Of a stretch of DNA of 47,907 bases, positions 16,251 through 24,213 are shown piece after piece. Made by a program: the position numbers and the translations under genes. The notes under the pieces were generated by a model. The model saw only the letters and a list, made by a program, of their open reading frames with translations, was not told where the DNA came from and did no database searches. Origin of the DNA: Candidatus Thalassarchaeum sp. (GTDB lineage Archaea; Thermoplasmatota; Poseidoniia; Poseidoniales; Thalassarchaeaceae); contig JAKURM010000006.1 in assembly GCA_022449945.1 (NCBI GenBank), forward strand, positions 1 to 47,907, given 5' to 3'. The number at the start of each line of letters is the position of its first letter. Within the stretch, counting starts at the first letter, position 1.

Positions 16251-17792
16251 GTGGACGAGTTGCCTGAGGGACTCTCTCTGCCTAGCGCAGAGACCTATTC
16301 TCCGAGGCCATCTGCTTCGGTCATGCTCAGCAAGGTCTCGGTTTCTGGTCATGAGATTCTAATGGGCCATAGGATCTCCGAGCTACCTGCTTTTCCTGAC
16401 CTGTGGTCATTTCCAGGAGGGGGTGTGAGCAGGGTCGACAGGAAAGCTGCTGATTCTCATCCTGAATGGCTCTCTGAGAGGGGGAGGGATAGATTGGCAG
16501 CATTCACACTCCTAAGGGAGATGGTCGAGGAAGTGGGTATCGCCCCAAACGGAGAGGGGGGATTTATCGAGGTAGAGCAGGATGTTAGAGACAAAGTCTG
16601 CAGTGACAAGTCCGCATGGATGGAGGAAGTCGTGTCCGGCGGAATCTCGATCGAAGCCTTCGATTGCCAGGTAATAACCGAGAGGACGACCCCGCCGCAA
16701 TCCCCAGTTAGGTTCCAAAACCTGTTCTTCCACGTATCCCTAGGAGTCTCGGGGGCCGAGCCCTCATTCCCCCCCGGCAGGAGCGAGTTCGACGAATTCC
16801 GGTGGTGGACACCTCACGACCTGATCTCCGCGTGGGAGGGCAACGAGATCCACCTCCCCCCACCCATAGTCACGATCATGAGGGACCTCATCGAGAAAAT
16901 GGAGGATGGCTCAGACCTGCCCTCTGCTTGCGACTCTCTAGCCGAGGACCCGCCTTCGGGCCCGCACCGATTCGAGTACGGGCCAGGGGTTGAGTGCGTG
17001 CTTATCCCTACCGCCACATTGCCACCAGCGACCCATACAAACTGCTTCGTGCTCGGGGAGAGGGGAGGACAGAGGATCGTAGTTGACCCTGCGATCAGGG
17101 ACCAGGGGGGTTTCGAGGAGCTAAAGGCCAAGGTGGAGGAGATAAGAGAGGATGGGAGCGAAATACTGTGCACCGTCTTCACTCACCGGCACCAAGATCA
17201 CCTAGGGGATCTGGACCTAATCTCCCAGATCTACCAAGCGCCAGTCTGGGCTAGCGAGGAGACCCTCCGTGCCCTCCCAGGTGTATCGGTTTCTAGGACC
17301 CTGAGTGGAGGAGACTTGGTTTCGGTCGAGGGTCCTAGCGGGGATTCGGAATGGGAGGTCCTTGAGACGCCCGGCCACTGCCCGGGGCAGATCTGCCTGG
17401 TGGGGGATCCGGGCATAGTGTCCGCGGACAACTGCACCATGGTGGGCACCATACTGGTGCCATCCAGCGATGGGGACATGGGCGCATACATATCTGGTCT
17501 TGAGAGGCTGAGGGACCTGAGGCCCCACACCCTCTTCGCGGGACACGGTCCCTTAATTCCGAATCCAGAGAGGATGCTGACCGAGTACATCGAACATAGA
17601 AAGGCCAGGCACTCCAAGGTTCTAGAGGCAGTAGAATCCGGTTGCGTTTCATTGTCAGAGATTGCCATTACTGCATACTCAGACACCCCTGGGGCCAATG
17701 CGGCTCTAGCGGAGGATCAGGCCCTTTCGCACCTGAATGAACTGGTCCGCACTGGGGCAGTAAGGAAGTCGGGTGAAGGCTTCCATGTCTGA
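16251..17792 (+). CDS. Nudix hydrolase fused to metallo-beta-lactamase fold hydrolase
   Basis: 513 residues from GTG at 16251; an ATG at 16323 would remove part of the first Nudix strand. Residues 22-225 resemble a Nudix domain: LWSFPGGGVS, then LLREMVEEVGI, which fits the second half of the Nudix box. The box is split by an insertion of about 17 residues between the glycines and the Arg-Glu, so the first conserved Glu is not clear. Residues 240-430 are a metallo-beta-lactamase fold: H312, H314, D316 and H317 in THRHQDHLGD, H376 in TPGHCPGQ, an Asp in SADN and a His in FAGHGP. The last 75 residues look like a winged helix, as in LACTB2-like proteins. Possible roles are nucleotide, CoA-ester or RNA-end hydrolysis; the substrate is unknown. 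Confidence 0.88.
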   Translation: MDELPEGLSLPSAETYSPRPSASVMLSKVSVSGHEILMGHRISELPAFPDLWSFPGGGVSRVDRKAADSHPEWLSERGRDRLAAFTLLREMVEEVGIAPNGEGGFIEVEQDVRDKVCSDKSAWMEEVVSGGISIEAFDCQVITERTTPPQSPVRFQNLFFHVSLGVSGAEPSFPPGRSEFDEFRWWTPHDLISAWEGNEIHLPPPIVTIMRDLIEKMEDGSDLPSACDSLAEDPPSGPHRFEYGPGVECVLIPTATLPPATHTNCFVLGERGGQRIVVDPAIRDQGGFEELKAKVEEIREDGSEILCTVFTHRHQDHLGDLDLISQIYQAPVWASEETLRALPGVSVSRTLSGGDLVSVEGPSGDSEWEVLETPGHCPGQICLVGDPGIVSADNCTMVGTILVPSSDGDMGAYISGLERLRDLRPHTLFAGHGPLIPNPERMLTEYIEHRKARHSKVLEAVESGCVSLSEIAITAYSDTPGANAALAEDQALSHLNELVRTGAVRKSGEGFHV

Positions 17793-17849: not shown

Positions 17850-19343
17850 ATGCTAAGAAGGGAAGTTGTGCTCAAGCCAGGCAGGCATGGGAAGTATTAC
17901 GTTGATGGTTTCGTCGATGGCCGCGGGCCGATTAGGTTCTGCGTCGACACAGGGGCTAGTATGACCTACATCAGCGACGAGATAGCCGATGCCATTGGTC
18001 TTGAGTGGAGAAGTGGCTTCAAGCGGAAGACTGGAGGAATTATTGGAGAGGGTGATTCTTGGATCGTTCGCGTCCGATCGATTAGAATTGGGGATATAGA
18101 AGTCAAAGATCCTGGGGATCACGACCGTCTTTGGTGTGGTGTCATTCCTGAAATGGATTTGACGGGAATAGATGGGCTCATAGGGATGTCTTTCCTAGAA
18201 AAGATTGAATTCACTCAAGATGATGGTAAACTAATACTACATGACGACTCCGTGGAGACTATGCCGGAGCTGGGCTCAGACAGATGGTGGGGCAAGGACA
18301 AGCCGAAGGATGAGGTCGATGGCCCTCCTCAGGAAGATGGCGATAGCGAAGAGGAGGCTTCTACTAGCGATGATGCTCGCAAGGAGGAGATAGCACAAGC
18401 CGAGCACGAAGCCAAGATGGCCCAAATTGAGTTTGTAGAGTCCGAGGCGAAGAGGAAGCAGGCGTGGTCCGAAAAAACAACCCCCATGGTCTATGACGTG
18501 GACAGAGACGGTGACGGGGAGATCACTCGTGAGGAGAAGATTGCCCATGAGACCGGTGGCGGAGTTTTGGGCCTCTGGTGGCTAAACCCCGAAGAGGCGA
18601 TCACCATTGGAGTATCTGCAATGCTAGTCATATTCACCCTAGGTATGGGGATGCTCATATCCTCTGAAGAGGTTGAGTGGGAGGTTGGCGAAGCAACAGT
18701 ACTCTTGGGGACCTCGTGGTGGGAGGAGGAGTACGAGATGGAGGATTGCCTTTACGACGAGTACAACGACGAGTACTACGACTGCTACTACTACTACGAG
18801 TACGAGTGTGGGTCTGATGTGGACTACGAGTTCACTATTGCCGGGGTGGTGTACTCTGGCGAGGATGGCGTCACACTAGGAACGTGGGATGACTACTGCC
18901 TGGAAGAGGTCGAGTCAAACGTCCTCCCCATAGACAGCACAGTGACTGTCTGGTATGACAAGGAAAAACCGGAAAATAATCAATTGAGTGAGCCCGTTGA
19001 TGCTGGATTTATCGTCTGGTTATGCTGCATGCCGTTTTTCTTAATACTCCTAATTGTCACACTCTTTTACGCTAGGTTCAACAACGTATCCAAGGACTCC
19101 TTCGAGGGAGAAAGCCACATTGTAGAGGGCACCCCTGGGATGTTTCGCCAAGGAGGGGGCGTGCACTACCACTCCCATGGACGCTGGGGTTGGGGCAGTA
19201 GGATGTTCGGAAGGCCTAGACGCATCCATAGGGCCCGATCCAGAAGGAAAACAGGGGGAAGAAGTTCTGGAGGCAGGCGATCCACCGGTGGAAGAAGGTC
19301 GGGTGGCGGAGGAAGAAGGTCCTCCGGCGGCCGCAGAAGGTGA
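17850..19343 (+). CDS. Retropepsin-like aspartic protease with EF-hand, DUF3592-like loop and R/G-rich tail
   Basis: 497 residues. Residues 15-132 look like a single-lobe clan AA aspartic protease: FCVDTGASMTYIS with catalytic D33, and GLIGMSFLEKIEF as the later conserved turn. Residues 140-210 are acidic then helical, likely coiled coil. A canonical 12-residue EF-hand loop is at 218-229 (DRDGDGEITREE). Membrane helices lie at about 250-270 and 385-408. Between them is a loop ending VTVWYDKEKPENNQLSEP, which resembles DUF3592, interrupted at about 290-320 by a run of Tyr, Asp, Glu and Cys. The last 50 residues are Arg/Gly/Ser with repeated GGRRS. With no signal peptide, the protease, EF-hand and tail should be cytosolic and the Tyr-rich loop outside. 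Substrate unknown; active as a dimer if it behaves like retropepsins. Confidence 0.85.
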   Translation: MLRREVVLKPGRHGKYYVDGFVDGRGPIRFCVDTGASMTYISDEIADAIGLEWRSGFKRKTGGIIGEGDSWIVRVRSIRIGDIEVKDPGDHDRLWCGVIPEMDLTGIDGLIGMSFLEKIEFTQDDGKLILHDDSVETMPELGSDRWWGKDKPKDEVDGPPQEDGDSEEEASTSDDARKEEIAQAEHEAKMAQIEFVESEAKRKQAWSEKTTPMVYDVDRDGDGEITREEKIAHETGGGVLGLWWLNPEEAITIGVSAMLVIFTLGMGMLISSEEVEWEVGEATVLLGTSWWEEEYEMEDCLYDEYNDEYYDCYYYYEYECGSDVDYEFTIAGVVYSGEDGVTLGTWDDYCLEEVESNVLPIDSTVTVWYDKEKPENNQLSEPVDAGFIVWLCCMPFFLILLIVTLFYARFNNVSKDSFEGESHIVEGTPGMFRQGGGVHYHSHGRWGWGSRMFGRPRRIHRARSRRKTGGRSSGGRRSTGGRRSGGGGRRSSGGRRR

Positions 19344-19385: not shown

Positions 19386-20246
19386 GTGCTCGTGGATGGA
19401 CACTGGGATGGGGCTCCCGAACTAGAGGGAGCCGATGCTGAGGAGCTTTTTGTGGAAGTAGAGCCCAGCGTGTCAATCAGAGTGATTGTCTGGAATCCAA
19501 CGAGTAGAGGGGGGCCATCCGACGGCACGGTCGTCATGGTGCCTGGTTGGGGTTCAATGTTCGAGGGATGGCGGCCCCTGGTCTCCGAGTGGGTGAAGAG
19601 CAGGCATCTGGTATACATCGAGACAAGGGAGAAGGCGAGTGCGAGAATCGATAGGAGAATATCAAAGTCTGACTTCGCCATAGAAAGGCACTCGAGCGAC
19701 ATTGCCACCGTACTGGAATCCTTGGGAATAGCCCACTCCAATGTAGACTGGTACTCCTCTTCCCTGGGGTCGACACTGTTGATTGACGCCTACCAGAGAG
19801 GAGAGCTCGGAGGTAGGAGCTCGGTTCTTCTTGCCCCGAACCCAGACTTCGAATTCCCACTCTGGTCCAAGGCCATAATCTACGCCCCCCTCCCCATGGT
19901 TGTCTACAAGAAGATGGTGGGTTTCGTGGCCTGGGTTGTCGACAGGAGGACCAAGGAGGAAGGACAGAAGATCCGCTACAGGAGGGCTCTACTTGCACAG
20001 GATGTACCAAGGATGCTTCTCTCCGCCAGATGGAACCTAAGCTACAGCCTTCCTGATGACCTGTCGTCCGTCGAAGTGCCATGTGCCGTGATGACGGCCC
20101 ACTCGGACACGCTGCATGACTTCGACAAGGTCCAGGGGGTGGTCGATTCCATCCCGAATTGCAGGCTGATAGAGGTCCCTTCGAACCAGTACGCCCACGA
20201 ACCGGGTGTTCTGAAAGAAATCGATGAATTCCACTCTTCGTTGTGA
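19386..20246 (+). CDS. Alpha/beta hydrolase fold protein
   Basis: 286 residues from GTG at 19386, 42 nt after the aspartic-protease gene. Seen: VVMVPGWGSMFEGWRPLV, the strand-turn carrying the oxyanion hole in alpha/beta hydrolases; DIATVLESLGI, the helix before the nucleophile elbow; and DWYSSSLGSTLL, where S126 would be the nucleophile. The usual Gly before the elbow is replaced by Ser (SxSxG in place of GxSxG). Near the C terminus, AVMTAHSDTLHDF could supply the acid and NQYAHEPGVLKEI the His. It is probably a cytosolic esterase or lipase-like enzyme. The modified elbow leaves room for a non-catalytic role. Confidence 0.8.
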   Translation: MLVDGHWDGAPELEGADAEELFVEVEPSVSIRVIVWNPTSRGGPSDGTVVMVPGWGSMFEGWRPLVSEWVKSRHLVYIETREKASARIDRRISKSDFAIERHSSDIATVLESLGIAHSNVDWYSSSLGSTLLIDAYQRGELGGRSSVLLAPNPDFEFPLWSKAIIYAPLPMVVYKKMVGFVAWVVDRRTKEEGQKIRYRRALLAQDVPRMLLSARWNLSYSLPDDLSSVEVPCAVMTAHSDTLHDFDKVQGVVDSIPNCRLIEVPSNQYAHEPGVLKEIDEFHSSL

Positions 20247-20277: not shown

Positions 20278-22452
20278 ATGAAGGGTAGCCGGGCGCGGAT
20301 AACTGATAGCATGCGCGAGCAGTCATCCTCGTTCGAGATCGCCCGCATGGTCAGCGAGCTTTCAGAGATGGTCGGAGCGAGGTTGAAGAAGGCATACCAA
20401 CCCCACTACGAGCAGATAGTACTGAGATTGAATCGCAAGGGATTACCCTCCACTGACCTCGTCATTGTGAGAGGGCTCAGGGCCTACACATCCAACAGAG
20501 ACCGTCCGATGCCCTCCAATCCCTCGCAGTTCGCCATGATCCTAAGGAAGCATCTGAACAACTCTAGGTTGGTTGGGGTGGAGCAATTCGGCTTCGATCG
20601 AGTCGTCAAACTAACCTTCGAGCATGGTGGAGGGCAACTGGGACTAGTTATCGAACTCTTCAGAGACGGGAACATCTTGTTACTCGAGGGAGATGGGACG
20701 ATAATTCGACCCCTGACCCATGCGAAGTACGCGAGTCGTTCTCTGAAGAAGGGCGTGAAGTACTCCCCTCCCCCCGAGACTGTGGATCCTCGTTCCATGG
20801 ACGGGGAGTCATTAGACAAGATTCTCGATGGAAGCGATCACGATCTAATCCGTACACTGGCCGCGAGGGCAAATCTAGGCAGGGTGTACGGAAGCGTGGC
20901 TTGTTCAATTGCAGGACTGGATGAAAAGACCCAGGCCTCCTCTCTGAGCAGTGAAGAAAGGGAGTCGCTCGAAGAGGCGATACGAACTATGTCGGATGGC
21001 CTCTCAGATGGTTCCGGGGGAAAAATCTGGATGTCGAGTCCAGAGTCCAAGGTATTGTGGGAAAAATTTGGGAACGAGTCCGAGAGAGATTCGGCTTCGT
21101 CTGGGATAATCGAGTTCTCGCCGATTAATCTACCCAACATGGATGATTCCCTATTGATTCAGCTTCCATCACTATCCTTGGCTTATGACTCAATATTCGG
21201 CTCGCATGACGCAGCAGCCTTCATCCGCAGGGAAGAGGAGAGGTTGGTTGAGTCTGGAGTCAGCGAATCAGAAGAGGGAGGCAGATTGGACAGGAGGGCG
21301 GTCCAGCAGAGATCTGCAATTGATCGTTTCAGGGAAAGAGCGACCATCACACAGGAGCTTGGGAAGTCGATAGAGGGAAACTGGGAGCACGTAGACTCTA
21401 TCTTGGGCCAATTGAGAACTGCGGTCGAAAAGGAGGGGTGGCACGACATTGCTGACCGATCTTACGAGGTCGATTGGATTGACAGCGTTGACCCAGCGAA
21501 GAAGACCGTGGTAGCGTTCCTCCCAGATGAGGACAATGAGCCGGGGGCAAGCGTCACCCTGGAAATAGAAAAGACAGTCCACCAGAATGCCCAGAGATAC
21601 TTCGAAGAGGCCCGAATACAGAAGGGCAAGGCAAAGGGGGCGCAAGAGGCCCTCGAGAAGACCGAGGAATCCAAACAAAGGGCGGAGAAGAAAGCCGCGA
21701 AGGATGCTGCTTCAGGCAAGCTTAGAGGGAAGAAGAGGAGCAGGAGATTCTGGTTCGAGAAGCACCGATGGGCAGTACTTTCCGGTGGAAACCTGATCAT
21801 CGGAGGTAAGGATGCGAAGGGAAACGACATGGTCGTGCGGAAGCACCTGACCTCCAGCGACCTGTACTTCCATGCCGACCTCCATGGTGCCCCATCATGC
21901 TCACTAAAACTCAAGGATGGGCTTATCCGGAACAAGAATCCCTCTGGAAGCGTCCCCGATGGGGTCGCCTCCCTCCAAATAGTCCAGAATCTGGGAGAGG
22001 GGATTGAAGATGCCCGGGAACTTCCAGAGAATGTCCTCAGTGAGGCAGCACAGGTAGCAGTATGCTGGTCTAGGGCCTGGGGTAGCGGAGGGGCTGCAGC
22101 AACTGCTTTCCATGCCAGATCAAGCCAAGTTTCGAAAACCACGGAGACGGGGGAGACGCTTGCTCGTGGCTCATTCGTAGTAAGAGGGAAGAGGAACTGG
22201 CACCGGGATCTGAAACTAGAGTTGGCAATTGGCCTGGCAGTCGTAAATGGGGTGCCTATCCCCATCTCTGGAGTCTCGAGCACAATCTCAGAAATGTGCG
22301 ATAGATGGGCCAAGGTGGTTCCGGGTAGAGAAAAAAAGGAGGGTGTTGCGAATAGAATCGCCAAGTCAACTGGCCTCGCCCAGGAGGACGTTCTATCCTG
22401 CCTACCGCCCGGAGGGTGTTCCCTCGAAGACCATGGCCTGATTCAGCCCTGA
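20278..22452 (+). CDS. Rqc2/NEMF/RqcH-family ribosome quality-control protein
   Basis: 724 residues. The family binds 60S/50S subunits blocked by peptidyl-tRNA and in several organisms adds C-terminal tails to the stalled chain. Seen: the NFACT-N domain (about 15-240), including FGFDRVVKL, where D107-R108 match the Asp-Arg pair needed for tail synthesis in RqcH; long charged helices at about 320-500 (coiled coil); a basic KKRSRRFWFEKHRWAVLSGG start of the NFACT-R domain; then GKDAKGNDMVVRKHL, DLYFHADLHGAPS and VSKTTETGETLARGSFVV. Two starts are possible, ATG 20278 (supported by the TATA position) and ATG 20311 (gives family-like numbering). The end overlaps the convergent GNAT gene by 10 nt. 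Confidence 0.95.
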   Translation: MKGSRARITDSMREQSSSFEIARMVSELSEMVGARLKKAYQPHYEQIVLRLNRKGLPSTDLVIVRGLRAYTSNRDRPMPSNPSQFAMILRKHLNNSRLVGVEQFGFDRVVKLTFEHGGGQLGLVIELFRDGNILLLEGDGTIIRPLTHAKYASRSLKKGVKYSPPPETVDPRSMDGESLDKILDGSDHDLIRTLAARANLGRVYGSVACSIAGLDEKTQASSLSSEERESLEEAIRTMSDGLSDGSGGKIWMSSPESKVLWEKFGNESERDSASSGIIEFSPINLPNMDDSLLIQLPSLSLAYDSIFGSHDAAAFIRREEERLVESGVSESEEGGRLDRRAVQQRSAIDRFRERATITQELGKSIEGNWEHVDSILGQLRTAVEKEGWHDIADRSYEVDWIDSVDPAKKTVVAFLPDEDNEPGASVTLEIEKTVHQNAQRYFEEARIQKGKAKGAQEALEKTEESKQRAEKKAAKDAASGKLRGKKRSRRFWFEKHRWAVLSGGNLIIGGKDAKGNDMVVRKHLTSSDLYFHADLHGAPSCSLKLKDGLIRNKNPSGSVPDGVASLQIVQNLGEGIEDARELPENVLSEAAQVAVCWSRAWGSGGAAATAFHARSSQVSKTTETGETLARGSFVVRGKRNWHRDLKLELAIGLAVVNGVPIPISGVSSTISEMCDRWAKVVPGREKKEGVANRIAKSTGLAQEDVLSCLPPGGCSLEDHGLIQP

Positions 22453-23051
22453 GTTCTTGATTTCCACTCCGGGTATGTGATTGCGTACATCACCGAGTCT
22501 GTGAAATGGTCGTACAACCATTCCCTGTCTTTCGAGATTCCCTCTAGCCTCATCCCCATCCGTTCAGCGACAGCACGGCTAGCATGGTTCTCCACCGCTA
22601 CCTCCAAGACAAATCGGTGCAATCCTAGGTCTTCGAAGCAATGTTCCATTAGGCGGATACAGGACTTTGTCACGTATCCATGTCCGGAATGAGTCTCGGA
22701 CAACCAATAGCCAGCTCCACATCCTTTGTTTGCCCAGTCTATCCAATTCAGGCTAGCTGTTCCAATTATCTTTCCATCGAGGCGAATAGCGTATATCGCC
22801 CCCTCGCGCTTTTCAAAATCCTCTAGGCTCAACGAAATGAAGGAAATCTCGTCCCGCACGCTTTGAATATCATCAAGCCAAGGGAGCCACTCCCTTAGGT
22901 ACCGTCTATTTTCATCTATTTTTAGGAACAAATCCTCAGCGTCTTCCTCAACTATAATTCTGAGTTCCAATCCTTCCTCCACTAGCAACCTAGACTCAAT
23001 ATCCCGTCGGATTGGCCTTGAGTCGTTTGGCAGTTCGCCCGTGCCAGCCAT
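22443..23051 (-). CDS. GNAT-family N-acetyltransferase, RimJ/RimL-like
   Basis: 202 residues from ATG at 23051. The frame is open for 27 more codons, but that extension would overlap the tryptophan dioxygenase start, and the purine-rich GAGGAG just before 23051 favours the shorter form. Seen: an acidic N-terminal helix with DENRRYLREWLPWLD; a core strand IIGTASLNWIDW; GAGYWLSETHSGHGYVTKSCIRL, where the acetyl-CoA pyrophosphate loop is expected; HRFVLEVAVENHASRAVAERMGM; and a terminal strand with LYDHFTDSVMYAI. This is the pattern of ribosomal-protein or aminoglycoside acetyltransferases of the RimJ/RimL group. The acceptor is unknown. Confidence 0.93.
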   Translation of the reverse strand: MAGTGELPNDSRPIRRDIESRLLVEEGLELRIIVEEDAEDLFLKIDENRRYLREWLPWLDDIQSVRDEISFISLSLEDFEKREGAIYAIRLDGKIIGTASLNWIDWANKGCGAGYWLSETHSGHGYVTKSCIRLMEHCFEDLGLHRFVLEVAVENHASRAVAERMGMRLEGISKDREWLYDHFTDSVMYAITYPEWKSRTQG

Positions 23052-23130
23052 ATCTCCTCGGACACATTGCAGCATTTGAGTGGTTCTGGATTGGCGACAA
23101 CCCTTCAAGTGCCATCGTTCTGGATGGCTC

Positions 23131-24213
23131 ATGAGTGGCTACGGTGGATCGGGGAACTGGACCTACGGGGACTACTTGAGTCTACACGAATTATTGAAAT
23201 TGCAAGGTGAAGAGCGGGAGGTCTCTTCAGATGAGATGCACTTCATCATCGTTCACCAGACCTTCGAGCTCTGGTTCAAGCAGATAATCAGGGAGCTTAC
23301 AGAGGCCAGGGAAATATTGGGCCAGGTCCCCGTTCCTGAGGATGACATTCCACGGGCAGTGGACCATCTAGCAAGGACTACCGAGATATTTCGCCTGATG
23401 GCGAGCCAGTGGACCGTCCTCGAGACTCTGACGCCTCAAGGCTTCCTTGCCTTCAGGGATGGATTGGGCACAGCCTCTGGATTCGAGTCCTTCCAGATGC
23501 GAGAGTTCGAGGCACTGCTAGGACTTGAGTCCGGAGACAGGCTGTTCGGCATGGACCCATTGGCGACCTTCAGGAAACTCGCCGAGAGGGGGGGCGAAGA
23601 CGCGGAGGTTCTAGCTAGATTAGAAGCCAGGGTGCAGGAGGAAACTCTCTACGACTCACTGATGAGATGGATTGAGAGGACTCCGATAATGGGGTCAACC
23701 TATGGAAGCGACGGAGACGAAGGAGAAGTGAGTGAATACGTCAGTTCCCATCTAGATGCGCATCGAAGGATATGCAATGAGGCAGTTGAGAAGATGTCCG
23801 CCTTGGGTGACAGGGACCCTGGTTCAGTGAGAGAGAGGATGGATGCCGCCCACGATTCTGCAGTCGCCTTCCTAATCCCGGAGGGGGATGTTAGCCGTGC
23901 GAGGGCTGGGCTGCTGTTCATCGAGTCGTACCGGGAGTTGCCACTGCTGACCTGGCCAAGAAGATTGATTGACGCATTCGTAGAGCTTGAGGAATCGATG
24001 GCGAAGTGGAGGCACGATCACGCACGGATGGTCGAGAGGATAATTGGGAAGAGGACTGGAACGGGCGGGACCAGTGGGGTTGACTACCTGGATGCAACGG
24101 CTAGGTACAGGATCTTCAAGGACCTCTGGGAAGTAAGGACAATCCTGGTAAAACCACAAGATAGGCCCGAATTGAAGAGTTCCGAATTCTACGGATACAA
24201 TGTCGATTCGTGA
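23131..24213 (+). CDS. kynA: Tryptophan 2,3-dioxygenase
   Basis: 360 residues from ATG at 23131. The enzyme uses heme and O2 to open the indole ring of L-tryptophan, giving N-formylkynurenine. Seen: YGDYLSLHELLKLQ; EMHFIIVHQTFELWFKQI, carrying the distal His and substrate contacts; FLAFRDGLGTASGFESFQMR with the carboxylate-binding Arg region; WRHDHARMVERIIG with the likely proximal heme His; and GTGGTSGVDYLDAT, the loop that closes over substrate. All the hallmark motifs are present, so it should be active. The thiolase gene follows after 4 nt. No other kynurenine-pathway gene is in the window. Confidence 0.97.
   Translation: MSGYGGSGNWTYGDYLSLHELLKLQGEEREVSSDEMHFIIVHQTFELWFKQIIRELTEAREILGQVPVPEDDIPRAVDHLARTTEIFRLMASQWTVLETLTPQGFLAFRDGLGTASGFESFQMREFEALLGLESGDRLFGMDPLATFRKLAERGGEDAEVLARLEARVQEETLYDSLMRWIERTPIMGSTYGSDGDEGEVSEYVSSHLDAHRRICNEAVEKMSALGDRDPGSVRERMDAAHDSAVAFLIPEGDVSRARAGLLFIESYRELPLLTWPRRLIDAFVELEESMAKWRHDHARMVERIIGKRTGTGGTSGVDYLDATARYRIFKDLWEVRTILVKPQDRPELKSSEFYGYNVDS

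Follow-up and report, generated by a model that had tools for sequence, protein, structure and literature searches.

Single-lobe retropepsins must dimerize for activity. DDI1 and DDI2 share this fold and are intracellular, but they have no membrane part and carry ubiquitin-related domains, which are absent in the protein described here. Membrane-bound retropepsin-like signaling proteases are few, and the model case is SpoIIGA of Bacillus, an aspartic protease embedded in the membrane and switched on by SpoIIR acting from outside the mother-cell membrane (PMC13174948). In Rickettsia conorii, APRc (RC1339) is a single-lobe retropepsin with a transmembrane (TM) segment, which accumulates as a dimer and autoprocesses by Asp-dependent autolysis; its catalytic domain is C-terminal (residues 87-231 have been used as the soluble domain), and the protein is located in the outer membrane, facing the surface (PMC4140852). 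In Pseudomonas, RimB and RloA use the single-lobe fold for regulated cleavage, with RloA cleaving glutamate-rich sequences, and both are soluble or secreted proteins with other operon partners (PMC11957791, PMC12239564). The TIGR02281/Asp_protease_2 proteins, including short archaeal clan AA peptidases, have known prokaryotic members described as open reading frames of about 120 residues (PMC2642776). The domain analyzed here probably belongs to the same protease subfamily. A different comparator is provided by the DUF3592 proteins (PF12158), in which a small beta-rich loop is flanked by two TM helices; no protease-bearing DUF3592 protein was found in the literature searched, nor was a membrane-bound retropepsin-like signaling protease found described there for archaea.

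The window, which is the whole stretch of 47,907 nucleotides of Candidatus Thalassarchaeum sp. that was analyzed, encodes a protein in which a retropepsin-like domain and a DUF3592-like domain are joined. By analogy, SpoIIGA may be its closest working counterpart, though the layouts differ: SpoIIGA has five N-terminal TM helices followed by a C-terminal protease, whereas in the window family the protease is N-terminal or internal and is followed by a pair of TM helices enclosing DUF3592 and then by a basic tail. APRc, for its part, is without DUF3592, EF-hand and R/G tail.

Results

Architecture of the window protein

The open reading frame is intact from ATG to stop (Table 1), and its named relatives are found in AG-422-I22 (L002) and the MAG SP88 (L003). 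A sequence-only reading had listed a protease, a linker, an EF-hand loop, two TM helices, a DUF3592-like loop and a tail as its modules, and this list is correct, including a canonical 12-residue EF-hand loop with conserved ligands at residues 218-229. The AF2 model of the full-length protein, with three sequences as input, was poor (pLDDT 40.6), and within it a helix was predicted at residues 170-209 with pLDDT up to 80.

Table 1. Features of the window protein gene and of the slot in which it lies.
Feature	Position	Strand	Description
Whole gene	17850..19343	+	497 aa: retropepsin, WW/acidic helix, EF-hand, TM, DUF3592-like loop, TM, R/G/S tail
Retropepsin-like (clan AA) domain	17859..18251	+	residues 4-134; PF13650/PF13975, TIGR02281, AF2 and Foldseek; mosaic cassette
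DTGA motif	17946..17957	+	residues 33-36, predicted catalytic Asp33; invariant in 24/24 aligned domains and four more
DRWW, acidic linker and predicted helix (EEIAQAEHEAK)	18276..18476	+	residues 143-209
Canonical EF-hand loop DRDGDGEITREE	18501..18536	+	residues 218-229
First transmembrane helix	18594..18668	+	residues ~249-273; hydropathy 2.12
Acidic, cysteine-bearing DUF3592-like loop between helices	18669..18989	+	predicted extracellular
Second transmembrane helix	18990..19082	+	residues ~381-411; hydropathy 2.79
Arg/Gly/Ser-rich tail, GGRRS repeats	19197..19340	+	residues 450-497; predicted cytosolic
c1, left slot border: NUDIX and metallo-beta-lactamase fusion	16251..17792	+	513 aa; Pfam; in 125/148 genomes of the family
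c3, right slot border: alpha/beta-hydrolase-like protein	19386..20246	+	assigned by eye; no Pfam match at 0.001
c2, next gene: RqcH/NEMF (NFACT) homologue	20278..22452	+	PF05833 1.6e-48, PF05670 9.8e-26

The protease domain matches Asp_protease_2 (PF13650) with E = 8.2e-15 over profile positions 3-90 of 90 and gag-asp_proteas with E = 9.5e-14, both above the Pfam cut-off, and it matches TIGR02281 (clan_AA_DTGA) with 3.7e-15 and 56.2 bits, slightly below a cut-off of 57.95 bits that four relatives exceed (L002, L035, L058 and L072). An AF2 model of residues 1-140 (pLDDT 70.7) gave 154 Foldseek matches to the PDB at E ≤ 0.001, and the best 50 of these are all retropepsins, with APRc at the top followed by DDI1 and lentiviral proteases, including that of HIV. 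APRc (PDB 5c9b, 5c9d and 5c9f) is the closest solved relative, with a value of 4e-4 by sequence and of 7e-8 by fold among the matches listed, and no other convincing solved relative emerged from the sequence search. The hydrophobic-hydrophobic-Gly motif is LIGMSFL at residues 110-116; both DTGA and GM.FL are invariant in 24 of 24 aligned protease domains, and none of the 28 protease-bearing sequences examined departs from DTGA. The window copy is without the T-A of the flap motif TAxG, which is nearly invariant among the relatives. By profile, motifs and predicted fold, the domain is thus a retropepsin-like aspartic protease of clan AA, the identity first proposed for it from its DTGAS motif; clan AA similarity is strong in both the profile and the predicted-structure search, and no protease-bearing homologue lacks D33.

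In the membrane part, the window match to DUF3592 (E = 0.0026) scores 18.8 bits against a gathering cut-off of 25.3, which is passed by relatives L035 (27.5) and L056 (26.2), and C300, C312, C320 and C350 are invariant across 14 aligned relatives. The loop between the TM helices contains 2 basic and 34 acidic residues and the tail 23 basic and 4 acidic, the last 48 residues including 18 Arg and 13 Gly. This charge distribution and the lack of a signal peptide before the protease make an N-in/C-in topology likely, and charge and hydropathy would therefore place the protease and both ends of the chain in the cytosol, in agreement with the same-side arrangement argued for earlier. Homology of the scaffold to a GIDE/MULAN-like TM-BAM-TM family, which was suggested by a partner protein in the same slot, was dropped at an hhalign probability of 3.4%. 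In SP88, a standalone DUF3592 protein of 192 aa lies directly upstream of the window homologue (L003:4983-5561), and its relatives sit elsewhere in G240 and G138 (L057 and L059, mutually identical).

Among the fetched loci, all 38 open reading frames with an R/G/S-type tail belong to the scaffold family, and for the loci seen a general sorting function of such tails is thereby rejected. The exact tail pattern, searched across 16 genomes, matched the window-type tail and two other places. The tail goes with the DUF3592 scaffold and not with the protease, and it could equally bind anionic lipid or RNA or another polyanion.

One slot with seven states

The gene lies between c1 and c3, followed by RqcH, and the same slot with the same following gene is found in genera g1, g5, g7 and g9; the identities of c3 and of some neighbors were assigned by eye. 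After RqcH, the window encodes a GNAT acetyltransferase and a tryptophan 2,3-dioxygenase-family protein (22443-24213), in an order conserved across genera. Seven states of the slot were seen: protease-first with EF-hand, protease-first without EF-hand, protease-internal, protease-less, double-DUF3592, LemA and empty. A tally of 66 slots, made by hand and excluding those with other or unreadable contents, gave 3 of the window's form, 2 protease-first without EF-hand, 19 protease-internal (one split over two contigs), 13 protease-less, 6 double-DUF, 11 LemA and 12 empty. LemA occupies the slot in g2, g4, g6, g11 and some g1 and g9 genomes; in G230 and G171 it is accompanied by an opposite-strand GIDE-domain membrane protein (PF12483, slightly below cut-off; L141:235-2326 and L148:60-2196). 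Different membrane proteins occupy the slot in g8; their loops are acidic and rich in Trp and Cys (WWCKYE...WWYYCEHHDSDWHC; L174:140-1333 and L176:3934-6000), and G150 has them as a tandem pair.

The core of the window's family (f1) consists of the WW-acidic helix, a TM helix, DUF3592, a second TM helix and the R/G/S tail, with some members having two DUF3592-like units. The segment at residues 143-209 of the window protein forms the N-terminus in both the protease-less and the protease-internal relatives. In the window, L002, L003, L033 and L034 the protease comes ahead of the WW helix; in g5, g7, G122, G099, G013 and G527 it lies between the WW helix and the first TM helix, and g9 and others have no protease. 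G081 and G062 belong to a protease-bearing clade and have lost the domain, of which a short piece of the C-terminus is left. The survey of homologues thus shows no fixed architecture, with many same-slot orthologues being without protease, two domain orders, and an EF-hand in only three genomes.

Across the order Poseidoniales (marine group II), to which the archaeon of the window belongs, a relative was found in 75 of 244 genomes with the full-length query and a clan AA protease in 36 of 244 with PF13650. Nearly all PF13650 proteases of f1 are fused to the scaffold, the exceptions being g8, with standalone proteases (L072 and L082), and g4, where one protease at a contig edge (L117) carries an AN1-like zinc finger. 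In members of the second family (f2), it is DUF3592 that is followed C-terminally by an AN1-like zinc finger (L061, for example; below the Pfam cut-off), and the proteases are mostly short separate proteins. A search of the rest of the phylum found no protease fused to the scaffold, only short separate proteases, and within the order and phylum searched the fusion is found in Poseidoniales only. The AN1-like zinc finger is C-terminal to a retropepsin in g4 (L117:2-790) and to DUF3592 in f2 (L061:5449-6780), as if the two domains were exchangeable partners.

A clade-specific EF-hand loop

The EF-hand matches of the window protein fall below the Pfam cut-off (E 0.048; EF-hand_5 13.6 against 25.9 bits), and what was found in the protein is a single loop and not a full paired helix-loop-helix domain. 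Composition-shuffled versions of the protein yielded a canonical EF-hand loop in 32 of 20,000 cases. The only carriers are the window, AG-422-I22 and SP88, and in these three all 23 residues of V217-V239 are identical despite up to 14 synonymous codon differences. Because the 23 codons differ between the window and AG-422-I22 by 14 synonymous and zero amino acid changes, the loop is under selection within this clade. Its confinement to three genomes places it outside the general design of the scaffold family, as judged from the relatives compared, and calcium control therefore cannot be the general mechanism. The calcium-responsive membrane protease with a polyanion- or RNA-binding tail that was proposed from the sequence is supported in part: the canonical loop is invariant in its clade but limited to three genomes, the tail and DUF3592 are features of a broader scaffold family, and the protease itself is facultative. 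A degenerate EF-hand-like juxtamembrane sequence, YEATKDGELTPEE or YEATKDGELTEEE, occurs at the position of the window EF-hand in a protease-less (L044:2815-3963) and a double-DUF (L153:233-1567) relative.

Exchange of the protease between genera

Synonymous divergence (pS) was computed for each gene segment and for the flanking genes, with pS above about 0.7 being saturated. Between genera, pairs with pS below 0.45 number 0 of 375 for c1, 0 of 354 for c3, 23 of 157 for the protease and 28 of 375 for DUF3592; these pairs are non-independent, as many share ancestry, and a few exchange events are the safe minimum. G103 (g5) and G113 (g7) have proteases at pS 0.06 with flanks at 0.79-0.81, and G212 (g5) and G140 (g7) have proteases at 0.20 with DUF3592 at 0.84. 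The reverse is seen in G122 and G099, of one genus, with flanks at 0.19-0.31 and proteases at 0.56, and in the window and SP88, which differ by 0.33 in DUF3592 and 0.67 in the protease. In 20-codon windows, the shifts in divergence are located at the edges of the protease domain.

The protease tree rejects the protease-internal forms as one clade (p-AU 0.0005). The G013 protease groups with those of G122 and G099 (97/93; p-AU 0.04 when forced with g5/g7), and its DUF domain groups with g5/g7 (100/100; p-AU 5e-5 when forced with G122/G099). Taken from these trees, G013 is a chimera of a G122/G099-type protease on a g5/g7-type scaffold; since its flanks are fairly close to g5, it is more a chimera than proof of distant transfer, and the g5/g7 pairs appear to be the cleaner cases of exchange. 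In the genes compared, the protease behaves as an exchangeable cassette that has been joined at two positions, lost, and passed between genera with or without the DUF3592 segment, all within one slot.

Discussion

We propose, at a probability of roughly 0.55, that the window protein is a membrane-tethered cytosolic retropepsin on a lineage-specific scaffold, activated by dimerization and governed by an outer sensor domain, with its cassettes being shuffled by recombination. In a two-pass protein with the predicted N-in/C-in topology, one retropepsin lobe would be carried on a long cytosolic helix, with the DUF3592-like domain outside and the basic tail inside. Two chains would pair to form the active site, as in all single-lobe retropepsins, with the helix and the membrane, both well suited to control this pairing, confining the partner chains. 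The outer domain may sense something at the cell surface that changes the pairing, and DUF3592 would be a plausible input domain. The substrate cut would be cytosolic or near the membrane, possibly the acidic linker or tail of the protein itself. In the small clade of the window, the juxtamembrane EF-hand may add control by Ca2+ (or Mg2+), and the tail probably tethers the cytosolic portion to nucleic acid or to anionic lipid in the membrane. That the same two domains have been joined repeatedly is standard evidence that protease and scaffold work together, and the fusion at two positions, deletion and exchange suggest that this is a regulated membrane protease on which the pressure to vary is strong. 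Since protease-less versions persist in the same slot, the scaffold also serves some purpose that does not involve proteolysis.

Such shuffling suggests that variety itself is selected, as in recognition or conflict genes, though a role in recognition or defense is a guess. Along these lines, the protein could be a variable surface or recognition protein (a virus receptor, or a virus-defense or self/non-self factor) in which contact is made through DUF3592 and the protease represents one among several interchangeable effectors in the cytosol, with selection for rare types driving recombination. The seven states in one fixed slot among related genomes would fit this, as would the within-gene mosaic across genera with unaffected flanks and the alternative cytosolic modules, in that an AN1-like zinc finger follows DUF3592 (in f2, L061 and others) or the protease (in G077). 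We nevertheless consider it unlikely: the flanks are housekeeping genes without a defense island, no relative was found among viral contigs or phage genomes, and ordinary recombination of a niche-adaptive gene fits the exchange too. A weak match to the PADLOC candidate PDC-M08B (4.6e-6) is due to clan AA similarity alone, and PDC-M08 partner genes were not found among the three flanking genes scanned. A viral origin of the gene is likewise unsupported by the search of viral contigs and phages. In its most specific form, which we regard as rather improbable, the slot would hold the membrane receptor of a hypervariable recognition system, whose outer domain and cytosolic effector cassettes (a retropepsin, an EF-hand or neither) are reassorted by recombination among species and genera, and the retropepsin would be an effector against viruses or neighbors.

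A second alternative looks to the neighborhood, where the scaffold could be an envelope-stress or proteostasis factor doing the job of LemA, which replaces it in other genera, in some genomes together with a GIDE-domain protein. LemA does take the same c1-c3 slot, with RqcH next in line, and the secreted retropepsin-like RloA enzymes of Pseudomonas serve osmotic stress tolerance (PMC12239564). This seems improbable to us, however, since LemA and a family member occur together in G226, G190 and G048, many slots are empty, and the scaffold-GIDE homology is absent in profile comparison (probability 3%). Strict mutual exclusion of LemA and scaffold is rejected genome-wide by the same three genomes.

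A narrower doubt concerns the window copy, which could have altered or lost activity in view of its long protease branch (0.77) and the missing flap T-A. That its protease is a relic or pseudoenzyme, the protein now being a scaffold only, would accord with this branch length, compared with 0.15-0.30 for the proteases of L002 and L003 and 0.15-0.25 for the DUF domains, with the changed flap residues, and with the outright deletion of the protease in G081 and G062. Yet the window retains the catalytic DTGA, LIGMSFL and an intact frame, and its excess divergence from SP88 is also synonymous, which cassette replacement fits better than relaxed constraint; we hold a relic to be quite unlikely. That the mosaic is an artefact of metagenome assembly is very improbable, for although most genomes surveyed are MAGs and runs of N (scaffold gaps) stand in place of some tails, each mosaic gene shares one contig with its flanks, both flanks in the g5/g7 cases are saturated against the other genus, two false joins per genome would be needed in many genomes at domain edges, and the protease-first version is also present in AG-422-I22, which we take from its AG-series name to be a single-cell genome.

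Out of reach of the sequence-only reading, and new here, are the single fixed slot, the existence of two domain orders, the losses of the protease and the mosaic exchange between genera. Since joining, relocation, removal and exchange of the protease have all taken place at one locus and on a single scaffold, the coupling of protease and scaffold becomes testable through natural variants, such as G062 without and G113 with the protease, whose c3 genes differ by a pS of 0.07. Within-gene mosaicism between genera in these abundant uncultured marine archaea raises the question of what selects such variation.
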